In this document: positions 19,560 to 24,215 of the stretch, in pieces | Position numbering within the stretch: the first letter of the stretch is position 1 | How the letters are laid out: each line of letters opens with the position of its first letter | Translations under genes and position numbers: made by a program | Assembly (NCBI RefSeq): GCF_947498095.1 | Contig: NZ_CANMJE010000008.1 | Coordinates: 124,001-188,000, forward strand | Source: an uncultured Shimia sp. | GTDB lineage: Bacteria; Pseudomonadota; Alphaproteobacteria; Rhodobacterales; Rhodobacteraceae | DNA length: 64,000 nt | Reading direction: 5' to 3' | The notes under the pieces: model-generated | Database searches by the model: none | The model's input: only the letters and a program-made list of their open reading frames with translations | What the model was told of the DNA's origin: nothing

Positions 19560-19603
19560 CAATGCGTTAATGGCATTTTGTCCAAGCATAGGTGGGCTCT
19601 GCG

Positions 19604-19885
19604 ATGACAAAACTGATTTCTGCACTGATGGTGGCGACATGTCTGGCGGCGCCTGTTGGCGCACAAACCTGGAGCAGCAATGCCCCCCAGATCGGTCCGG
19701 TCAATCAGCCCGAAGGCATCCTGATCGAAGCTTATCCGACCTCAACAAACCATTGTCAGGCCGGATATCAACCAGTCGTTTTCGGAGGTGTCATCTGCTG
19801 CGGCAAGCCGAACGCAACCTATAATGCTTCCCACAGCGCGCCGGCCATGCAGCAATGTGCGGCAGGCACCAAGGGCTGCAGCTAA
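19604..19885 (+). CDS. small secreted cysteine-containing protein
   Basis: A 93-residue protein with signal peptide MTKLISALMVATCLAAPVGAQ. The mature part has five cysteines, in NHCQAGYQ, VICCGKPN and QQCAAGTKGCS, and no recognisable domain. The paired CC and terminal Cys suggest disulfides in the periplasm. An in-frame GTG twelve bases upstream is a weaker start. It stands alone behind its own promoter. Confidence 0.65.
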   Translation: MTKLISALMVATCLAAPVGAQTWSSNAPQIGPVNQPEGILIEAYPTSTNHCQAGYQPVVFGGVICCGKPNATYNASHSAPAMQQCAAGTKGCS

Positions 19886-20689: not shown

Positions 20690-21058
20690 ATGCGCAATGC
20701 GGCCCTGACATTGGGGATTATCGCCGGAGTGTTCGGCATGTTTATCGGGTTTTTCAGCTGGGGCTATATCGAAGTCACGGAACGCTACAACGAAGTTGGC
20801 GAGCTGTTCAGCTATGTTGAGAACGAACAGTTGGTCAAAGCGGCGGGCCTGTTGTCACCGCTTTTGGCGATTGCGGGCGGGGCGATGTCTCGGGCCCGTG
20901 CCTTGTGGGGTGGCGTTTTGCTGATCCTGTCGGCGATCGGCATGTATGCGGCTTTTGGGTTTGGCGTCTTTACCATGTTCCCGATCTCTTTCGCGGCCCT
21001 TGGCGGCATCCTAGCGATTGCCGCTGGTAAGCCGGACGAACCTAAATCACACTTTTGA
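20690..21058 (+). CDS. small integral membrane protein
   Basis: A 122-residue protein with four hydrophobic segments (about residues 5-25, 50-64, 70-90 and 92-112) and a soluble loop EVTERYNEVGELFSYVENEQ after the first. It resembles DUF4064-like proteins but no motif settles this. GAGG lies before the ATG. Its 3' end overlaps the end of the convergent DoxX gene by twelve bases. Confidence 0.65.
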   Translation: MRNAALTLGIIAGVFGMFIGFFSWGYIEVTERYNEVGELFSYVENEQLVKAAGLLSPLLAIAGGAMSRARALWGGVLLILSAIGMYAAFGFGVFTMFPISFAALGGILAIAAGKPDEPKSHF

Positions 21059-21601
21059 AGCTGATCGCTTCGACAAAAGTCGGTCAAGGGACAGTGGCCC
21101 TGCGCCCTTGACCACAATGACTGCCATCAAGAATACCCATAGCGCGCGTTGATCCATGATCGCGCTGTTCTCGATCCGATCAAACCAAGCGCCAATGGTG
21201 CTGGCATCCGCGTGATGGCCGACAATGTCCGTGAGTGATTGCAGCACGATAAATCCGATCATGCCCACGGCCGCCAAGCGTGACAGCAGCCCCAGAACGA
21301 TCATCAACGGCAGGATGAACTCGGCCCATGTGCCGCCCAAAGCGACAGCCCAATGGAACAGTGACAGCTGTGATGTGTCGTAGCCTGCAGCCTCAAACAC
21401 CCGCGGGAAGATTTGAACATAGGCCCCGGTCGACGGTTGAAATAGTCCCAAAAACCCGTCGCCCAGTTTGGTCAGGCCAGAGTTCCAGAAGTAGAACAGC
21501 AGGACCGCTGCGAACAGAAATCGCGCCAGGGTTGGGATAATCCAGTCTGCCCGTTCTAACCTTGATAAAACGGAATTATGGAGTGAAATCAAGGCATTCA
21601 T
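21047..21601 (-). CDS. DoxX family membrane protein of the bufferin operon
   Basis: A 184-residue protein with four membrane helices. It begins LARFLFAAVLLFYFWNSGLTKLGDGFLGLF, characteristic of the DoxX/DoxD family, with FILPLMIVLGLLSRLAAVGM and a final helix ALWVFLMAVIVVKGAGPLSLDRLL. DoxX homologues are regular last genes of bufferin operons, where they are proposed to act in the membrane during export or redox handling. It lies nine bases downstream of the DUF2063 gene and ends in a twelve-base overlap with the convergent gene. Confidence 0.85.
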   Translation of the reverse strand: MNALISLHNSVLSRLERADWIIPTLARFLFAAVLLFYFWNSGLTKLGDGFLGLFQPSTGAYVQIFPRVFEAAGYDTSQLSLFHWAVALGGTWAEFILPLMIVLGLLSRLAAVGMIGFIVLQSLTDIVGHHADASTIGAWFDRIENSAIMDQRALWVFLMAVIVVKGAGPLSLDRLLSKRSASKV

Positions 21602-21610
21602 GCTGGTTCC

Positions 21611-22360
21611 TCAGGTGTTTGTAGACAAGATGGCTCGACAGGTCAGCAAGAGCGCGAGGCTGGCGCTGAGGTCGAAGTCCGGAGTGGATTGCGTGGCCAA
21701 TTCAGCGGCGTCCCCAAGGGTTTCGCCCGCAGCCAATGCGACGGCAAAGGCGCCGCCACCGGCGGGCATCAGCTGTGGTTCGGGATCAAAATCCCGACGT
21801 ACAATCAGCACGTCCTGAGCGCCTGCAGTGGGCTTGGCGGCCCCTTCAATCATGTTAAAGGCCCAGATGTCGTAGATCGGCCAGGGTGAGGTGGCAATCT
21901 CTACGGATGGAACCAGCTCAATTTTGGCGGTCGCCAGATTTTCCGGAGGGATCCGGGACAGGACGTCGTCGTCCATCTCAGCGGAATCCGCGGCGTGGTA
22001 AGAGCGCCTCATGGCCATTTCCATGTCCGCCACATCTCCGAGATAGCCGAGATGCTTCAAAGGTTCAAAGCCGCGCAGGAATGCGGGGAAGCTCGCGCCA
22101 TAGTACATCATGAGAGGGCTGCTCGGAGGGGATTGACGCAGGTATACGCCTGCGATTGCTTTGAAGTTTTCTTCGCCCAGAAGTTTTGCGATTGCCGGGA
22201 AGCCGGTTTCAAGCGCCTCGGTCAAGGAAACGGCCACATTGTTGCGGTAGACATCAAACCTTCGCCCGGCAGGGACACCATTGGCATCCTTTAACCCTGT
22301 TGGCGCTGCCAGATCGTTGTTCAACAACGCGGCGCGAAAATCTGATTGGGTGACACTCAT
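21611..22360 (-). CDS. bufC: DUF2063 family bufferin maturation partner
   Basis: A 249-residue protein. It starts MSVTQSDFRAALLNNDLAAPTGL and contains FDVYRNNVAVSLTEALETGFPAIAKLLGEENF, the signature of DUF2063/HvfC-type proteins. These partner the DUF692 enzyme and are thought to bind the precursor through a RiPP-recognition-like element. The ATG overlaps the bufB stop as ATGA, so the two subunits are made together, consistent with a complex. Symbol given by position and family. Confidence 0.85.
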   Translation of the reverse strand: MSVTQSDFRAALLNNDLAAPTGLKDANGVPAGRRFDVYRNNVAVSLTEALETGFPAIAKLLGEENFKAIAGVYLRQSPPSSPLMMYYGASFPAFLRGFEPLKHLGYLGDVADMEMAMRRSYHAADSAEMDDDVLSRIPPENLATAKIELVPSVEIATSPWPIYDIWAFNMIEGAAKPTAGAQDVLIVRRDFDPEPQLMPAGGGAFAVALAAGETLGDAAELATQSTPDFDLSASLALLLTCRAILSTNT

Positions 22361-23214
22361 GCCGCGACCTTTGCAAGGGCCTTGGCCGCGCGGGCGGCCT
22401 CGGATTCCAGTTCGGGCCACTCAGGCACATCATTGTCCCATTCAATTAGGATCGGACGCGGGCCAGCGCGCTCAAGCGTATGATCCAAGAGTGCCCAGAC
22501 CGGATCGACGACGGGTTTGCCGTGGCTGTCGATCAGCAGCGGCGCACCATGCTCATCTTCGTCCTCGTCATGACCGCCAAGGTGAATTTCTCCAACCAAT
22601 TCCAGTGGGTAATCGTCGATATAAGCGCGGGGATCATAGGTCAGGTTTGTGGCCGAGACAAAAACGTTGTTCACATCCAGCAACAGGCCACAGCCGGTCC
22701 GCTTGCCCAGTTCCCGAAGGAAATCCGGCTCGGACCATGTGCTTTCTTCAAACGCGAGGTAGCTGGAGGGGTTTTCTAGCATCATCTGCCGCTTGATGGT
22801 CTCTTGCAGTTGGTCGATGTGGTCGGCCACGCGGGTCAGAGTCTCATTCGTGTAAGGCAGGGGTAACAGATCATTCAGAAACGCGCTTTCATGGCTGGAC
22901 CAGGCAAGGTGTTCTGAAAAAACAGTGGGTTGAAGCCAGTCTACCAGATGTTTCAGTCGCGCCAGATGGTCGGCATCCAGATCGCGTTCACCGCCGATGG
23001 ACAGTCCGACGCCATGCACCGAGACCGGAAATCGTTCGGCGAGGTGACGTAGTTGGGCCAGCGGGCGACCACCGGCCCCCATGTAGTTTTCGGCGTGAAT
23101 TTCCAGCCAACCAACTGACCCGGGATCTTCCATGATGTTTTGGAAGTGTTGGGGTTTGTATCCAACACCTGGGGCATTCGGCAGGTCCGGGAAACGGGAT
23201 GTCACGTCAAACAT
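22357..23214 (-). CDS. bufB: DUF692 multinuclear non-heme iron oxidase (MNIO), bufferin maturase
   Basis: A 285-residue TIM-barrel enzyme. Family marks: GVGYKPQHFQNIM, WLEIHAENYMGAGG, VHGVGLSIGG, SEHLAWSSHES, LLLDVNNVFVSA, GEIHLGGHDEDEDEHG and LIEWDNDVPEWP; the His/Asp/Glu residues in these blocks ligate two or three irons. Relatives (MbnB, BufB) oxidise precursor cysteines to oxazolone/thioamide or thiooxazole groups. A GTG at 23256 would overlap the precursor gene, so the ATG at 23214 is preferred. Located directly after two DUF2282 precursor genes. Confidence 0.88.
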   Translation of the reverse strand: MFDVTSRFPDLPNAPGVGYKPQHFQNIMEDPGSVGWLEIHAENYMGAGGRPLAQLRHLAERFPVSVHGVGLSIGGERDLDADHLARLKHLVDWLQPTVFSEHLAWSSHESAFLNDLLPLPYTNETLTRVADHIDQLQETIKRQMMLENPSSYLAFEESTWSEPDFLRELGKRTGCGLLLDVNNVFVSATNLTYDPRAYIDDYPLELVGEIHLGGHDEDEDEHGAPLLIDSHGKPVVDPVWALLDHTLERAGPRPILIEWDNDVPEWPELESEAARAAKALAKVAA

Positions 23215-23239
23215 GGGGGCAGGCTTTCGGATTTGACAG

Positions 23240-23542
23240 TCAGCTTGGTAGGTCACGATCTAAGGCATCAAGCGCGGGGCTTCTTGGTGTGCCATCTGCT
23301 AGATCGGGTAGTTCAATTTCCAGGCATGTGCCCTCATCAACCAGTGTCCAGGCATTGCCCTGATAGTCCACGGTCGAAGTCCCAGCACAGGATGTTCCCG
23401 GTCCGGCCTTGCAGCCGTTTTCACCCGCCATCGAAATGCCAAAGCACTTTTCTTTTTTTGCGGCCGCTGCTGGATCTGCTTGTAGCGCCAGAGCAGTAGC
23501 AACTGCACCGGCCAGCGACAACGCTTTCAATGGGTCCGACAT
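23240..23542 (-). CDS. bufA: DUF2282 bufferin-type RiPP precursor, second copy
   Basis: A 100-residue precursor. AGGGAG five bases before the ATG at 23542 sets the start; the in-frame GTG two codons earlier sits on the ribosome site. A signal peptide (residues about 1-28, ending AAAA) precedes a core [19 protein letters not shown] with C33, C44, C52 and C73, and [15 protein letters not shown]. Four conserved cysteines are the modification targets in bufferins, which sequester copper in the periplasm. The mature region is nearly identical to the first copy; the acidic tail has diverged. Confidence 0.87.
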
Positions 23543-23639
23543 TTTCACTCCCTTTCACCTAATAGTTCGTTGATCTGAACAAATACTTACGAGGTTAAAG
23601 GATAAACATAGCACAAATTGTAGAGGTGTCCGCAAAGTT

Positions 23640-23665
23640 GGCCCCGACACATGTGCATCGGGGCC
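23640..23665. terminator. stem-loop between the two bufferin precursor genes
   Basis: GGCCCCGA and TCGGGGCC form a perfect eight-base stem with a ten-base loop, eleven bases after the stop of the first precursor. Only a weak T-run follows on the minus strand, so partial termination or 3'-end protection is likely. Either would make the first precursor more abundant than the enzymes. Confidence 0.55.
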
Positions 23666-23676
23666 AGAGAACCAGC

Positions 23677-23982
23677 TTATGCCGGCAGGTCACGCTCCAG
23701 CGCTTCCAGCGAGCCTTTGCGCATCGTGCCGTCTGCCTGTGCTGGCAGTTCTACTTCCATGCAGGTGCCCGCGTCGACGAGTGTCCAGGCGTTGCCTTGG
23801 TAGTCCACGGTCGAGGTGCCGGCGCATGTGGTGCCGGGGCCCGCGGCGCAGTCATTTTTGCCGGCCATCGAAACGCCATAGCACTTTTCTTTACCCGCTG
23901 CTGCGGCTTCGGTGTGGCTTACGGCGGTCAGGGCGGCTGCTACTGCGCTGGCGACGGCGAGTGTTTTTACGGTCTTCGACAT
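23677..23982 (-). CDS. bufA: DUF2282 bufferin-type RiPP precursor, first copy
   Basis: A 101-residue precursor, first gene of the operon; GGGAAGAG precedes the ATG at 23982. Signal peptide residues 1-29 (ending SHTEAAAA), then [26 protein letters not shown] and [15 protein letters not shown], placing cysteines at 34, 45, 53 and 74. The pattern matches BufA1 of DUF2282. Bufferins are exported, MNIO-modified ribosomal peptides that bind copper. The hairpin just downstream and the promoter-proximal position suggest it is the major product. Confidence 0.88.
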
Positions 23983-24126
23983 GGTGTTCTCTTCCCTAGT
24001 TAGGTTTGTCATTCGAGCCACCGTTTGAGGCGGCATGTGAAAAATCTAAGTCGGGAAGGGTCACACGTACCAATCACGGGGGCGTGTATCACGACCGCGT
24101 CAGAGGGTGTGACGGTTTCGTGAGGA

Positions 24127-24140
24127 TTCCAGCGCTGGAA
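24127..24140. promoter_or_regulatory. perfect 14-bp palindrome upstream of the bufferin operon
   Basis: TTCCAGCGCTGGAA lies about 145 bases before the first precursor start in the 233-base region between thrS and the operon. It could be an operator; it is also close enough to the thrS terminator to belong to that transcript end. No regulator gene is adjacent to help decide. Confidence 0.3.
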
Positions 24141-24152
24141 GGCGGCAAATGT

Positions 24153-24195
24153 TTCGAAAACGAAACGGGCGCGCCCGGTTTTCCCGGACGCGCCC
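24153..24195 (-). terminator. thrS terminator
   Basis: On the minus strand GGGCGCGTCCGG and CCGGGCGCGCCC pair over twelve bases (one G-U) around a five-base loop, followed by a T-rich stretch GTTTCGTTTTCG. It starts about 20 bases after the thrS stop. Confidence 0.75.
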
Positions 24196-24215
24196 GCCGA
24201 TTGTTGCAATCGATG

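Follow-up and report, generated by a model that had tools for sequence, protein, structure and literature searches.

A probable Buf1-type bufferin operon in an uncultured Shimia sp.: one proposed maturation enzyme for three precursors that seem to be separately controlled

The window analyzed here comprises 64,000 nucleotides of contig NZ_CANMJE010000008.1 from an uncultured Shimia sp. (assembly GCF_947498095.1, positions 124,001 to 188,000), and on its minus strand (21047–23982) it carries bufA-1, bufA-2, bufB, bufC, and doxX, in this order. Bufferins are small exported bacterial peptides whose cysteines are thought to be made metal-binding by an iron enzyme; the original bufferin paper is reportedly that of Leprevost et al. 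We propose that the locus is likely a Buf1-type bufferin operon in which a single enzyme serves three precursors that are under separate control. The genome (4.08 Mb, 51 contigs) contains one MNIO gene and three DUF2282 precursor genes, the tandem and one unlinked copy. A sequence-only reading of the same DNA had named two DUF2282 precursors, a DUF692 MNIO enzyme, a DUF2063 partner, and DoxX in the above order, and all five genes are indeed present.

Profile comparison for the families expected from that reading placed all five proteins above their Pfam cut-offs (scores in Table 1), which are 22.4 bits for DUF2282 (PF10048), 27.2 for DUF2063 (PF09836; the bufC product has 249 aa), and 23.6 for DoxX (PF07681), the last being barely exceeded. 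The bufB product scored 351.8 bits with MbnB_TglH_ChrH (cut-off 25) and passed the cut-off of 310 bits of the NCBIfam equivalog MNIO_BufB, while the HvfB, ApyH, MbnB, and ChrH models all remained under their cut-offs; the most similar BufB in our genome collection, at 89% identity, comes from Shimia gijangensis. Most of the bufB product aligns with PDB entry 3bww; the two share histidine, acidic, and asparagine motifs, which do not vary among 17 aligned sequences. Four cysteines per precursor, as claimed earlier, were found in both mature parts. The precursor N-termini, judged by eye, resemble Sec signals, with a basic start, a hydrophobic stretch, and an Ala-rich end.

A sequence search with bufC matched no solved structure. 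A model of its product, built from an alignment of 36 sequences including that of the window (predicted local distance difference test score, pLDDT, 93.5), matched chain A of the TglHI entries 8hci and 8hi7 as well as 3dee (NGO1945). As chain D is given as the DUF692 protein, chain A was assumed to be its partner, TglI. The model matched single RRE proteins weakly (E about 4), so that the probable RRE-like C-terminal part of BufC is deduced from the match of the whole chain. The MNIO_BufB score together with the partner model matching TglHI and 3dee supports the bufferin-type assignment, and judged by its predicted proteins and by its bufA-bufB-bufC order, which in Buf1 clusters often continues with doxX, the locus is an ordinary Buf1 bufferin cluster of a Shimia-like roseobacter. 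Two other identities were rejected. For the oxazolin (hvf) systems, the scores were 240.5 bits with HvfB (cut-off 360), 35.9 with HvfC (142), and 21.7 with HvfX (80). For the Buf2 bufferins with 6 or 12 cysteines, Cu_RiPP_BufA2 gave bufA-1 18.7 bits (cut-off 60) and bufA-2 no match, and each precursor has four cysteines only.

The first of two candidate control elements lies in the 134 bases between bufA-1 and bufA-2, where a stem-loop directly follows bufA-1 (Table 1). Applying a simple stem score of at least 24 within 70 bases to the window and 79 related loci (referred to by L numbers; L043, with no precursor on its contig, was excluded), we found a stem-loop after the first bufA in 72/80 loci (71/79 without the window), compared with 6/800 dinucleotide shuffles and 16/790 random windows. 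Other gaps of the same loci reached this score in 18/118 co-directional and 12/51 convergent cases. The left arms comprise 71 different sequences among the 80 loci. In the window, the hairpin has a z score of −2.94, and none of 200 shuffles folded equally well. After the second bufA, the threshold was reached in 2/17 cases, L020 and L044, both tandems outside the Shimia-type set. Among the matches listed in wider samples, the stem-loop occurred in 26/28 loci of the genus, 12/29 of the class, and 10/25 of the phylum; these samples include some loci twice from one genome, approximate starts, and three phylum loci that belong to the family of the window. A terminator scan requiring a T run did not list the bufA-1 stem-loop, and Rfam returned one sub-threshold match located elsewhere. 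Within the genus, copy 2 sits on the enzyme side of the stem-loop. The simplest use of such an element would be to yield more precursor than enzyme.

The second element is a conserved box upstream of bufA-1, followed after about 20 bases by cTAnnnT, the counterpart of the candidate −10-like TTAGAT of the window; a simple sigma-70 scan listed no match at TTAGAT. The upstream set held 79 sequences (L043 and L049 left out), and L083, with seven mismatches, was omitted from the comparison of the box with the −10-like element. The consensus had first been taken from Shimia rows, and two-way cross-training was therefore done. A model from 56 other sites scored 22/22 Shimia-group sequences at 26.7 to 45.3 bits, and a model from the 22 Shimia-group sites scored 55/57 others above 0, L083 and L084 failing. 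With the full model, the family median was 38 and the minimum −13.9, and the best of 790 letter shuffles reached −0.1. Outside the family, the box was not found in 51 DUF2282 loci among the matches listed, 29 class loci scoring at most 1.0 and 22 phylum loci at most −2.9 (the score of L087, with its approximate start, is unreliable); the three loci that the phylum sample drew from the family itself scored 30 to 38.

The box also appears to mark no other kind of locus. The genome of the window contains one perfect match to the box core and seven with three mismatches, the reversed control giving two matches. In 198 family genomes, allowing at most one mismatch, the full pattern occurred 34 times in 34 genomes and the reversed pattern never. 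A DUF2282 position was listed for 26 of these matches (25 just downstream), and the DNA was read for the other 8 and for genome G063; taken together, all 34 lie at bufferin loci, with the box preceding the precursor in 33. The idea of a wider box regulon was dropped, only bufferin loci having appeared in this search. Among the largest neighbor-gene clusters of 74 loci, whose representatives were read by eye, no regulator was recognized. A palindrome, TTCCAGCGCTGGAA, lies upstream of the box at 24127–24140 and is common to part of the genus only; it resembles CueR half sites, and its position is far from the −10-like element.

Copy 2 and the unlinked precursor seem to lack the box. The search before copy 2 used the 23-base core, for which shuffles of the longer stretches reach 5 to 10 mismatches; across the window and 12 Shimia-type tandems, the best sites had 6 to 10 mismatches (8 in the window), and those before two unlinked precursors had 9 and 8. 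For the other two tandems, the counts were 3 (L020) and 10 (L044). Two tandems (L023, L026) were left out because the copy-2 start used for them gave no gap to search, and in L005 and L024 the gap was shortened by an upstream start.

The precursors differ from one another consistently. The sequence-only reading had described near-identical cores with different tails, which overstates both points: identity between the mature parts is 74%, and only a few tail positions differ. Across 15 tandems (the window and 14 of the same arrangement), mean identity of the mature parts was 87% within copy 1, 79% within copy 2, and 73% for copy 1 versus copy 2 of the same genome. Six positions passed the cut for a consistent difference between copies. 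The residue before the second cysteine (Cys2) is Asp in 15/15 first copies, and in second copies Gly in 13/15, His in one, and Asp in one; a tail position holds Gly in 15/15 first copies versus Pro in 15/15 second copies. In Buf1 bufferins, modification falls on the two central cysteines, according to passages of PMC12452194. Parts of PMC12668002 describe a thiooxazole ring in fontiphorin that includes the residue preceding the cysteine; they report that FonBC accepts Ala, Arg, and Thr at this position, with Phe and Glu impairing modification, and that the sequence around Cys is poorly conserved in DUF2282 peptides. By analogy with fontiphorin, the Asp/Gly difference sits where it could alter modification or the metal site.

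The unlinked third precursor, bufA-3 (L113, 7107–7409), retains the four cysteines, and its DUF2282 score is 77.3 bits. Compared with the unlinked copy of a second species (L114), it shares a 505-base stretch that is 84% identical and comprises the gene plus about 195 bases in front of it; the rest of the two 14-kb regions gave no further match at E 1e-5. This conservation suggests that the gene and its likely promoter stay together. The stretch L113:7106–7604 looks as if it had moved as a unit. In a tree of 56 mature precursors, copy 2 groups with the unlinked precursor, the 15 second copies and two unlinked copies lying on one side of a branch with support of 98/81; its rows were chosen from a 97-row set plus the second unlinked copy, and it uses 71 columns only. 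In a quick 97-row tree, made without the fragment L049 and duplicate window copies, the grouping was less firm (83) and included L020_1of2. The 96 bases from the stem-loop to bufA-2 (23543–23638) have 38% G+C and contain TTGTGCTATGTTTATCC. The region of TTGTGCTATGTTTATCC resembles the upstream region of the unlinked genes by eye and is possibly a promoter of this paralogue line. Sections of PMC12452194 consider that precursors away from MNIO genes are perhaps modified by an MNIO elsewhere, or unmodified.

The tandem is common in the genus and rare in the family. Read from coordinates as two DUF2282 matches within about 460 bases, it occurred in 14/25 genus species among the matches listed; on the same footing, DUF2282 was present in 25/25, with an additional unlinked copy in two. 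In a family sample of 295 genomes, nearly one per genus, DUF2282 was found in 211, and more than one match in 5/211. The 80 loci collected by BufB similarity included 79 with a precursor and 16 with two; one arrangement is common to the window and 14 of these 16, the exceptions L020 and L044 resembling separate duplications. Visual inspection of seven single-precursor loci in three frames revealed no remnants of a second copy. In a BufB tree of 77 of 81 possible rows (four were dropped when a motif search found no frame), the tandem state requires 6 changes across 16 tandem rows, which fits one gain and several losses and is no proof of it.

Gene content and cis elements can be read directly from the sequence, and from them we infer expression levels, chemistry, and copper binding as follows. 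By comparison with characterized relatives, BufC would hold the exported precursor by the signal peptide, the two central cysteines would be converted to thiooxazoles by BufB and its iron cluster, and Sec would export the modified peptide, which would sequester periplasmic copper. A single enzyme would thus serve three differently wired precursors. With the box before it and the stem-loop behind it, bufA-1 would give an abundant product. Located past the stem-loop and 25 bases before bufB, bufA-2 should reach roughly the same level as the enzyme or else be driven by a promoter within the 134-base gap; bufA-3 would depend on its own conserved upstream region, with no MNIO gene adjoining. With Gly in copy 2 versus Asp in copy 1 before Cys2, the metal site may differ. 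The stem-loop and box are thus candidate handles for dosage, and the residue before Cys2 for specificity. A more specific and rather unlikely extension is that the Asp/Gly split confers different metal affinity on the paralogous bufferins and that separate controls allow the blend to suit the metal load.

Several observations weigh against the proposal that the three precursors are separately controlled substrates of a copper-handling system. A single precursor is present in 11/25 genus species among the matches listed, which indicates that copy 2 is dispensable. Among single-precursor loci, the residue before Cys2 is Asp in 59/63 and Gly in 4/63 (L033, L059, L082, L083); Asp thus predominates, and Gly also occurs outside second copies. 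Eight of the 80 loci fall under the stem threshold (L007, L010, L020, L029, L044, L060, L066, L077), and L007 is a Shimia-type tandem. The median number of T in the 8 bases past the stem-loop is 2, and past other strong hairpins of the loci 2.5; a T-poor end is therefore seen in those hairpins too and does not separate a leaky terminator from a stabilizer. No convincing box precedes the L083 and L084 precursors, and in G063 the box lies between bufA and bufB (L185:1220–1252). Finally, with NrsF missing here, the copper control known from Caulobacter is not transferable.

The second copy could alternatively contribute dosage only, as a redundant or slowly decaying extra substrate whose sequence differences are irrelevant. 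Its four retained cysteines, the conservation of most of its core, its absence from many species of the genus, its greater drift compared with copy 1, and the use of Gly before Cys2 in a few single-precursor loci would all agree with this possible, though somewhat doubtful, account. However, the differences of copy 2 are widely shared, both before Cys2 and in the tail, and a position past the stem-loop without a box is poorly suited to raising the dose. As for the stem-loop, we consider it unlikely that it acts as a full terminator, with bufA-1 on a separate transcript and the remaining genes driven by a promoter before bufA-2. The hairpin is strong, the stretch behind it is low in G+C, and the upstream sequence kept by the unlinked gene implies that the copy-2 line may carry its own promoter. 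Yet single-precursor loci have the hairpin between bufA and bufB, where a full terminator would cut off the enzyme unless a further promoter existed; in addition, searches of the gap before bufA-2 for the box and for a sigma-70 consensus match found neither, and the terminator scan passed over the hairpin.

It also appears improbable that the peptides act on another metal or stress and not on copper. In favor of this, the genome lacks the SigF/NrsF pair that goes with the copper-induced Caulobacter cluster, the box occurs at no other gene from which the signal might be deduced, and the authors of PMC12452194 allow, in one passage, other metals for some bufferins. Against it, the MNIO passes the BufB equivalog, whose characterized members act in copper handling as far as the available passages describe them.

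Control of the SigF type was considered and dropped: NrsF gave 0 matches in the genome of the window (the Caulobacter control being positive), and no SigF motif, which we take to be GTAACC-N16-CGAA, was seen upstream by eye. NrsF is present in 29/198 family genomes. According to parts of PMC8224329, NrsF belongs to the SigF system of a Caulobacter DUF2282-DUF692-DoxX cluster, and this cluster is copper-induced. The Caulobacter cluster CCNA_03363–03366 (Buf1) likewise has a DUF2282 precursor with four cysteines and a signal-like N-terminus, an MNIO (DUF692), a partner, and DoxX. Unlike it, the Shimia genome has a tandem and an unlinked third precursor and lacks NrsF, and its cluster carries a stem-loop and a different promoter box.

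Parts of PMC12452194 already describe bufferins and their gene set, including, as here, tandem precursors beside one MNIO and precursors that stand apart from any MNIO gene. The tandem arrangement is thus not new in kind, and the regulatory and paralogue details are additions; the main text of that paper makes no mention of Rhodobact-, hairpin, stem-loop, or promoter. The oxazolin/captophorin clusters (hvf, fon, ngo) likewise pair an MNIO with a DUF2063-type partner, which install 5-thiooxazoles according to sections of PMC12668002. Their precursors have EGKCG repeats, in contrast to the present locus, where the HvfB, HvfC, and HvfX models stay below cut-off. The sequence-only reading had seen no description of this copy, and we likewise found no paper on the locus in the open-access literature searched. 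Bufferin clusters are widespread, and the passages of the literature at hand say little on the matching of precursor to enzyme or on control without SigF. The recurrent stem-loop and the bufferin-only box may offer handles on level matching and SigF-free control in a marine group, and the paralogue pair could serve as a natural experiment on how the residue before a modified cysteine affects modification or metal binding.

Feature coordinates are collected in Table 1. Two further details of the sequence-only reading proved correct: bufB and bufC overlap as ATGA, and nine bases separate bufC from doxX. The 4-base overlap recurs in 70/76 related loci having both genes. The bufA-1 start of that reading, 24036, probably lies too far upstream; a likelier one, picked from relatives and from the ribosome-binding site AGGGAAGAG in front of it, is the ATG at 23982. 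From comparison with relatives, bufB probably starts at ATG 23214, not GTG 23256.

Table 1. Features of the bufferin locus, in window coordinates.
Feature	Position	Strand	Basis
bufA-1, DUF2282 precursor, 101 aa, four Cys in mature part	23677..23982	-	PF10048 83.9 bits
bufA-2, second DUF2282 precursor, 100 aa, four Cys, Gly before Cys2	23240..23542	-	PF10048 77.7 bits
bufB, MNIO, predicted bufferin maturase	22357..23214	-	NCBIfam NF050167 376.8 bits; resembles PDB 3bww
bufC, DUF2063 partner, RRE-like C-terminal part probable	21611..22360	-	PF09836 89.5 bits; model matches
doxX, DoxX-family membrane protein gene	21047..21601	-	PF07681 25.9 bits, cut-off 23.6
Stem-loop directly after bufA-1, 12 pairs, 4-base loop	23639..23666	-	stem score, shuffles
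Conserved box TnACGn4yGTGAnnCACGn4yGTGAnTGG upstream of bufA-1	24070..24102	-	consensus, model, genome scans
Candidate -10-like TTAGAT; relatives cTAnnnT; nearly fixed distance from box	24044..24049	-	inferred
Putative terminator-like hairpin behind thrS, 15 pairs, then TCGTTTTCGA	24164..24198	-	hairpin scan

Given the terminator-like hairpin behind thrS, the operon is probably transcribed separately from this upstream gene. Among 74 related loci, a thrS-like gene lies upstream in 59 and an ArsC-like gene downstream in 36. On the plus strand at 19592–19885, a gene encodes a cysteine-rich 97-aa protein whose start resembles a signal sequence and which matched nothing in Pfam at E 0.001; a protein of similar appearance is found near the operon in a few related loci (a cluster of 5).

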